Positions 30,968 to 31,045 of a stretch of DNA of 64,000 bases are shown here, piece by piece. Origin of the DNA: an uncultured Chitinophagaceae bacterium (GTDB lineage: Bacteria; Bacteroidota; Bacteroidia; Chitinophagales; Chitinophagaceae). Every line of letters starts with the position of its first letter. Within the stretch, counting starts at the first letter, position 1. The notes under the pieces are model-generated. The model did not search any database and was not told the DNA's origin. It saw nothing but the letters and a program-made list of their open reading frames with translations. Position numbers and translations under genes: made by a program. Where the stretch lies: assembly GCA_937862815.1 (NCBI GenBank), contig CALMED010000002.1, positions 620,001-684,000 on the forward strand. The letters run 5' to 3'.

Positions 30968-31045
30968 ATGCATTACAACCAGCTTCATATTACTTTGCCC
31001 GCTGCATCCCTGCAGTGCTGTTGTATGCGTTGTTGTATGCCGTAA
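30968..31045 (+). CDS. Cysteine/methionine-rich leader peptide upstream of metY
   Basis: An ATG about 13 nt after the predicted transcription start opens a 25-codon frame whose last nine codons read CCCMRCCMP before TAA. Five cysteines and two methionines at the end of a short frame ahead of a gene that makes homocysteine is the classical design of an attenuator peptide, in which ribosomes stall if charged tRNA-Cys or tRNA-Met is scarce. The stop codon sits in the loop of an eight-pair hairpin. The frame is in phase with upstream ATGs at 30866, but that one lies before the promoter. Function is inferred, not shown. Confidence 0.65.

Follow-up and report, generated by a model that had tools for sequence, protein, structure and literature searches.

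A conserved cysteine-run leader upstream of metY in Bacteroidota, often accompanied by a SAM riboswitch, suggests ribosome-mediated sensing of cysteine supply

The window, i.e., the whole 64-kb stretch of DNA analyzed here, contains a presumed operon for homocysteine synthesis and sulfur assimilation that begins with metY, and the region upstream of metY carries a series of putative regulatory elements on the same strand (Table 1). Of the genes that follow metY, metX scored under its curated cut-offs and the others scored over at least one cut-off, and past the operon a sulfite/nitrite reductase-like gene, which falls under every curated cut-off, lies on the opposite strand. The closest named relatives of this metY (the best 80 of 577) are mostly from MAGs labelled Chitinophagaceae, placing the window in a Chitinophagaceae-like genome. 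A preliminary description of this DNA had drawn attention to a 25-codon frame ending in the Cys-rich CCCMRCCMP, an eight-pair hairpin (HP1) with the leader stop codon in its loop, and a promoter (P2) of the form TTTG-N20-TAnnTTTG. Direct reading of the sequence confirmed the frame, and the hairpin and an exact match to the promoter pattern were likewise recovered. Overlooked in that description were the SAM riboswitch further upstream, its own promoter (P1), and its terminator. HP1 includes the final Cys-Met-Pro codons of the leader, with the stop codon inside the GTAA loop, and 86 nt separate the leader stop from the metY start.

Table 1. Features upstream of and within the presumed metY operon of the window
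Feature	Position	Strand	Basis or remark
Promoter P1, TTTG-N21-TATTTTTG	30574..30606	+	Exact pattern match; 5' of SAM riboswitch
SAM-I riboswitch aptamer (RF00162)	30621..30734	+	76.5 bits; gathering score 44.4
SAM riboswitch intrinsic terminator	30770..30806	+	14-pair stem, then T-rich tail; z -5.2
Candidate long form of leader ORF, 59 aa	30866..31045	+	In-frame ATG; read-through transcripts; coding putative
Promoter P2, TTTG-N20-TACATTTG	30919..30950	+	Exact pattern match
Leader ORF	30968..31045	+	ATG 30968, 25 codons, TAA 31043-31045; sequence and conservation
Leader Cys codons	31016-31024 and 31031-31036	+	
Hairpin HP1, TGTATGCC-GTAA-GGCATACA	31034..31053	+	8 pairs; arms 31034-31041 and 31046-31053
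Hairpin HP2, TCCCG-TTC-CGGGA	31067..31079	+	Same-position hairpin in 43/70 loci
G-poor, pyrimidine-rich stretch, possible Rho-binding region	31080..31131	+	C/G ratio of leader loci
metY, O-acetylhomoserine/O-acetylserine sulfhydrylase	31132..32457	+	TIGR01326, 683.6 bits; cut-off 495.1
Presumed operon remainder: metX, hom, cysH, cysD, cysN, uroporphyrinogen-III methyltransferase	32505..38610	+	ORFs and family profiles

The 80 named metY loci (best of 577) were searched for ORFs of 8-75 codons with an ATG start within 330 nt 5' of metY. In 37 of the 80 loci, metY was preceded by an ORF whose terminal portion had 4 or more Cys within 8 codons, and relaxing the threshold to at least 3 Cys in 8 codons raised this number to 44. 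At the same two thresholds, dinucleotide shuffles (n = 3200) yielded such an ORF in 0.03% and 1.2% of cases, and control windows from the same loci (n = 2701) yielded 11 and 52 matches, with four of the 11 being leaders located one gene further upstream of metY. Judged by these counts, the presence of a Cys-run leader before metY is not a matter of chance. No ORF with at least 3 Cys in 8 codons was found within 330 nt of metY in the other 36 loci, which include the SAM riboswitch loci L016, L017, L046, and L091 and some loci with a promoter box near metY.

A covariance model comprising the Cys run and HP1 (R1) was built from 29 sequences; three of the 32 extracted cores were left out of its alignment (A1), namely the near-duplicates L010 and L014, and L037, which lacks the Cys run and retains the hairpin without a Cys-rich ORF. 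Across 394 whole genomes of the family, R1 matched 68 genomes, representing 18 of 92 genera, at 69 places, with a single place per genome except for one leader split across two contigs. Sixty-five of these places lie before metY, two at contig ends, one before a metX-like gene (an alpha/beta hydrolase fold by Pfam, the name metX coming from reading the translation), and one before a pair of genes for an ATP-grasp protein and a luciferase-like monooxygenase. Of the 69 places, 67 were read as loci, with G299 read via L007 and G404 running off its contig. Since R1 contains the Cys run and was seeded with metY leaders, the Cys richness of its matches arises partly by construction, which is not true of their position in non-seed genomes or of their reading frame. 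With the stricter filters of this search, R1 was absent from 326 of the 394 genomes, and this, together with the 36 metY loci without a Cys-rich ORF, indicates that the leader is not universal. At L159 (802-2499), an R1 match and a 3-Cys leader identified by eye, MVSLYHICYFHHCSTYCMP, are followed by ATP-grasp and luciferase-like monooxygenase genes, possibly a sulfur-scavenging operon. Within the window's own genome, a 24-nt leader pattern allowing up to 3 mismatches gave one exact place and four places with 3 mismatches, compared to one match for a reversed control. The exact pattern was found in one of 294 family genomes, the window's own, because the peptide of the window departs from the common CCC[I/C]CCMP.

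A check for conservation in relatives had been set beforehand as a refutation test, and both the frame and the Cys codons proved to be conserved. Of the 61 distinct R1 loci located before metY, 59 have an open Cys frame that begins with ATG, compared to 2 and 13 for the other two frames; one of the two misses has a GTG start recognized by eye (L122) and the other is cut by a contig end (L169), while L157 and L158 were dropped because the anchor motif is absent. Over 73 aligned loci, Cys codons outside of HP1 exchange TGT and TGC (27/29 at codon -4, 46/21 at codon -2, and 44/15 at codon -5), whereas the HP1-paired Cys codon -1 is TGT in 70 of 71 loci and TGC in one. Exchange outside HP1 and a fixed TGT inside it would be expected if the peptide is selected, and the codon pattern, as read from the alignment, is one in which unpaired positions are selected for cysteine and paired positions for both cysteine and RNA. 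In 93 distinct leaders, which were picked for having at least 3 Cys, Cys accounts for 42.7% of the 12 terminal codons and for 3.1% of the remaining ones. Several properties of an amino acid attenuator are present at the locus, including a short ORF whose terminal part carries a run of codons for the regulated amino acid, a position upstream of the cognate biosynthetic operon (metY, cysH, cysD, and cysN), and regulatory codons that overlap a hairpin arm, as HP1 contains the last Cys codon; the mutually exclusive antiterminator of a classical attenuator was not found. An upstream ATG in the same frame would lengthen the leader to 58-66 aa in L009-L015, L021, L096, and L098; the extended leaders of the genus share an MK(Q/R)T start, and in the window the extension spans 30866-30967, for a total of 59 aa. 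The frame of this long N-terminal part is kept in the genus alignment, with no clear synonymous signal, and translation of the extended leader could take place on transcripts that read through the SAM riboswitch.

Matches to the promoter pattern TTTG-N18-22-TAnnTTTG number 7 in the 64 kb, compared to 1.47 expected. With the box positioned at -12 to -5 relative to the start, as given in the available portion of PMC9723704, transcription from P2 would be expected to start at ~30955, 13 nt 5' of the leader ATG. Among 70 leader loci, TAnnTTTG precedes the leader in 37, with 4.1 expected, and the distance from box to ATG is 7-28 nt in 54. A near-palindrome surrounds the P2 box (30937-30955) and is also seen in L013, L015, L018, L042, and L044 (examples are CCGAC-TACTTTT-GTCGG and, directly 5' of metY in leaderless loci, TCTAC-TAAATTT-GTAGA). 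We take this near-palindrome to resemble the operators of the Rrf2 family (IscR/CymR-like), and the window genome has two Rrf2 genes over cut-off. An RNA hairpin across the promoter box was rejected, as its halves do not covary (44 loci, p 0.14), pointing to a fixed palindrome (operator), if anything.

The SAM-I aptamer of the window is the only match in its genome; it exceeds the gathering score and is followed by a terminator expression platform (30770-30806). To place this element in a wider setting, 46 of 57 SAM-match loci (60 places scanned) were compared, 28 not labelled Chitinophagaceae and 18 of Chitinophagaceae type, leaving out eight SAM loci without a leader and the minus-strand loci L007, L009, and L176. 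The leader ATG was taken as the first from 6 nt before the aptamer end on, and terminators were sought where the gap exceeded 30 nt. The 28 loci include Cytophagales, Solitalea, Bernardetia, and unplaced Bacteroidota, with L177 repeating the leader of L063. In 27 of them, the leader ATG lies 1-11 nt past the 3' end of the aptamer, a gap that leaves no room for a terminator; the exception, L086, has its ATG 62 nt past the aptamer, and no terminator was found there. For the 14 Chitinophagaceae-type loci with a leader, the gap is 102-466 nt and contains a terminator in 11; the other four (L020, L039, L045, and L057) have no leader within 700 nt of the SAM match. Two architectures can accordingly be distinguished, one in which riboswitch and leader are in direct contact on one RNA, and another with two tandem promoters, as is the case for the window.

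In loci of the Cytophagales type, a GCAACA located downstream is the pairing partner of the Cys run, and a second stem follows, in which 5 of 18 consensus pairs carry two-sided changes (10 sequences). The corresponding model (R2, 10 sequences) has a consensus energy of -7.7 kcal/mol with a covariation term of +0.11. R2 is rare, occurring in 5 of the 292 genomes from the order to which L074 belongs, the L074 genome included, and in 5 of 7 hand-picked genomes at E 0.05, four of which supplied model seeds and the fifth of which is a weak match. It is conceivable that in these loci the Cys-sensing leader is the direct output of the SAM-I riboswitch, with SAM blocking leader initiation by closing aptamer stem P1 at the AUG, and that the operon thereby reads SAM and charged tRNA-Cys in series on one RNA, the two sensors having been split into tandem promoters in Chitinophagaceae; this joint reading is tentative, and we regard it as somewhat short of probable. 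Several other arrangements were observed around these loci. An intervening gene separates the SAM aptamer and Cys leader from metY in L063, L079, L081, and L092; the one in L063 is OsmC-like, which suggests an osmC-metY operon. The L067 locus contains another SAM riboswitch upstream (549-660), and a DUF805 RNA (RF03081) occurs near a Belliella metY locus (L083, 1201-1268).

None of 200 shuffles folded as well as the leader region of the window (30955-31135; z -3.3). HP1 is paired in 93.2% of cells over 72 distinct rows in an alignment that was fitted to the structure, and two-sided changes occur in one pair only, in a hairpin whose arm holds an ATG codon. Downstream structure was assessed in 70 loci, i.e., a 72-locus terminator set minus L080 and L084, with the window included. 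A hairpin of at least 4 pairs starts 10-19 nt past HP1 in 37 loci and 20-29 nt past it in 16, with double counting possible, compared to 1.6 and 1.7 expected from shuffles, and none starts in the following 30 nt. By the rule of taking the best hairpin, HP2 is present in 43 of the 70 loci, in unrelated sequences, and absent in 27. On these comparisons, HP2 is the stronger structural case of the two. The preceding surveys show, at the level of sequence conservation, that the ORF, the Cys run, HP1 with a stop codon inside or close to its loop, and HP2 are conserved and are found almost only before metY. An HP2 with a T-rich tail, and thus terminator-like, occurs in 14 of 72 loci compared to 3.5% of shuffles, and is clear in L134 and L145. 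In the window, HP2 has no U-tract and fails as a terminator, and neither folding nor the terminator test supported HP1 or HP2 as a strong terminator there.

The preliminary description had further proposed that a repeated TGTATGC in the Cys-Met codons allows two exclusive pairings with GGCATACA. The motif does occur twice in the window, but among 70 loci its 7-nt upstream copy is confined to the window; the shorter TGTATG is present in 7 of them and any TGYAT in 48. The exclusive pairings were not borne out. Over the same 70 loci, the 3' arm of HP1 has no significant alternative partner downstream (z -0.25 +- 0.15), and a trp-like 2:3 antiterminator was rejected, there being no excess of pairing. 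The Cys run does pair above shuffles with the start of its own ORF, in the 50 nt upstream (z -0.88 +- 0.14). When 70 loci were folded with the ribosome at the first Cys or at the stop, structure past HP1 was unchanged in 53 of the 65 loci having one, which argues against a classical switch. From the attenuator originally proposed, the conserved leader was upheld, with cysteine favored over methionine, and the scheme of competing hairpins was left without support. In the last 55 nt before metY, the C/G ratio is 3.46 for the 70 leader loci and 1.55 for 29 hand-listed leaderless loci, and for the whole stretch the G-poor signal has a Mann-Whitney p of 7e-10 with loci taken as independent. A G-poor composition with C exceeding G is typical of Rho-binding regions. 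HP2 and this stretch together suggest Rho-assisted termination, and given the missing antiterminator and the G-poor stretch, a Rho-assisted mechanism is at least as likely as a classical one.

Based on the data presented above, the locus is probably a ribosome-mediated attenuator for which charged tRNA-Cys is the signal, and which is arranged in series with a SAM riboswitch in front of the metY-metX-hom-cysH-cysD-cysN operon. Plentiful SAM would cause the transcript from P1 to end at the riboswitch's terminator, and P2 would start a second transcript close to the leader ATG. With enough cysteine, the ribosome would complete the leader and leave, and transcription would stop short of metY, because HP2 acts as a weak intrinsic terminator, because Rho acts on the G-poor C/U-rich stretch, or both. 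A shortage of Cys-tRNA would instead cause the ribosome to stall in the Cys run, on or beside the 5' arm of HP1, and the polymerase would continue into the operon. Read-through transcripts from P1 would bear the same leader, placing both promoters under the Cys gate. We infer the direction of the response and the coupling step by analogy with other leader attenuators. More broadly, the occurrence of a Cys leader before sulfur-assimilation/homocysteine operons of many Bacteroidota, often together with a SAM riboswitch, suggests that cysteine supply is sensed via the ribosome.

It is also possible that control is translational rather than transcriptional, with the stalled ribosome altering access to the metY start, as would be in keeping with the lack of a clear terminator in the window and with the available text of PMC1262725, in which mycobacterial Cys leaders also lack terminators. 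In the window fold, the metY start AUGAG in fact pairs with a CUCAU just past HP1. However, this pairing is absent in the other 69 loci, so that a complement to the metY start within 30 nt past HP1 is found in one of 70 loci, compared to 5.3 expected, and the candidate was rejected as a conserved feature; moreover, the metY start lies 86 nt past the leader stop. We regard translational control as unlikely.

With respect to the signal read by such an attenuator, a response to methionine, or to methionine and cysteine both, might be anticipated given that metY, metX, and hom make homocysteine, that a SAM riboswitch lies upstream, and that Met makes up 10.9% of the last 12 codons in the 93 leaders. 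In the HP1 loci, however, the Met-Pro conserved at the end of the leader falls on the hairpin arm ATGCC, and the codons before the hairpin's Met comprise 338 Cys and 31 Met out of 560 (70 loci). The 20 Cytophagales-type leaders are free of the need for an ATGCC hairpin and still have Met at 19 of 240 tail codons, compared to 11 of 583 in the rest, with 15 of the 20 having at least one; Cys occupies 128 of the same 240 codons. SAM is, in addition, already sensed by the riboswitch. The codon counts favor cysteine as the main signal, and we consider it quite improbable that the leader responds to methionine instead of cysteine alone or along with it, while the raised Met in Cytophagales-type tails may reflect some share for methionine or a by-product of RNA pairing.

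Two further readings concern the role of the Cys codons themselves. Copper-sensing Cys leaders provide a precedent for sensing by the peptide, and a stretch of 4-7 Cys would bind soft metals or undergo oxidation, raising the prospect of a Cys-rich peptide that arrests the ribosome by binding, as a metal or redox sensor. The runs, however, have no fixed spacing or flanks (CCCICC, CCCC, CCYCCC, CCRCICC, CCCCACCC), and the downstream genes serve sulfur assimilation and homocysteine synthesis, not metal handling, making such a sensor very unlikely. The least credible reading is that RNA structure alone (HP1 and the pairing between the Cys run and the ORF start) is conserved with the frame incidental, since, although HP1 is well kept and the latter pairing exceeds shuffles, the frame bias, the TGT/TGC exchange outside HP1, and the same kind of Cys run opposite a different RNA partner in Cytophagales-type loci all speak against it.

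Polycysteine leaderless short ORFs of mycobacteria, reportedly described by Canestrari in 2020, are said to be cysteine-responsive attenuators with experimental support. As far as the accessible account of these ORFs goes, they share with the present leader a Cys run and a start codon near the expected 5' end, and differ in having been tested experimentally and in belonging to another phylum. The mycobacterial type has its AUG at the very 5' end of the transcript; for the window, a UTR of ~13 nt is predicted from the promoter position. In Actinobacteria, leader peptides with Cys runs also precede cys operons of Mycobacterium and Propionibacterium and cbs of Bifidobacterium, according to the available part of PMC1262725. 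These are likewise short ORFs with a Cys run by the stop, placed before sulfur amino acid genes with no obvious terminator and with Rho suggested; they differ in phylum and gene, and the available part reports neither a conserved terminator-capable hairpin nor a riboswitch partner. In Rhodobacterales, the uORFC-8-2 motif before cysS, as far as the available text of PMC8632094 describes it, similarly has Cys codons in a first stem, a second stem downstream, and a proposed tRNA-Cys attenuation, but is distinguished by two Cys codons, a 3' U run in all cases, its association with cysS, and its occurrence in Alphaproteobacteria. Combinations of a riboswitch and a uORF are presented for M. tuberculosis in the accessible portions of PMC11260477 and, for the Mbox case, PMC12810186. 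These resemble the present arrangement in having a riboswitch and a translated uORF on one transcript, with translation here being predicted, and differ in that the ligands are B12 or Mg2+ and that the uORF is not described in those portions as a Cys-codon sensor. Compared to SAM-I riboswitches in general (RF00162), the aptamer upstream of metY scores over the gathering threshold and in the window has its terminator, whereas the close spacing to the leader ATG in 27 of 28 loci not labelled Chitinophagaceae leaves that terminator no room. For Bacteroidota, the available parts of PMC9723704 and PMC7366714 mention attenuation leaders in general terms only. The open-access literature searched contained no report of a Cys leader before metY, nor of one combined with a SAM riboswitch; subscription papers were mostly outside the scope of these searches. 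Within the literature searched, the phylum, the gene, and the riboswitch pairing of the Cys leader appear to be new.

Leader-peptide control in Bacteroidota has been little described, and a conserved Cys leader heading a sulfur-assimilation operon would provide a defined and testable regulator. The natural variants, of which there are dozens, would be suited for studying attenuation where classical terminators are often missing. Moreover, the leader together with the SAM riboswitch would constitute a circuit made of RNA only, in which the methionine status of the cell is weighed against that of cysteine.
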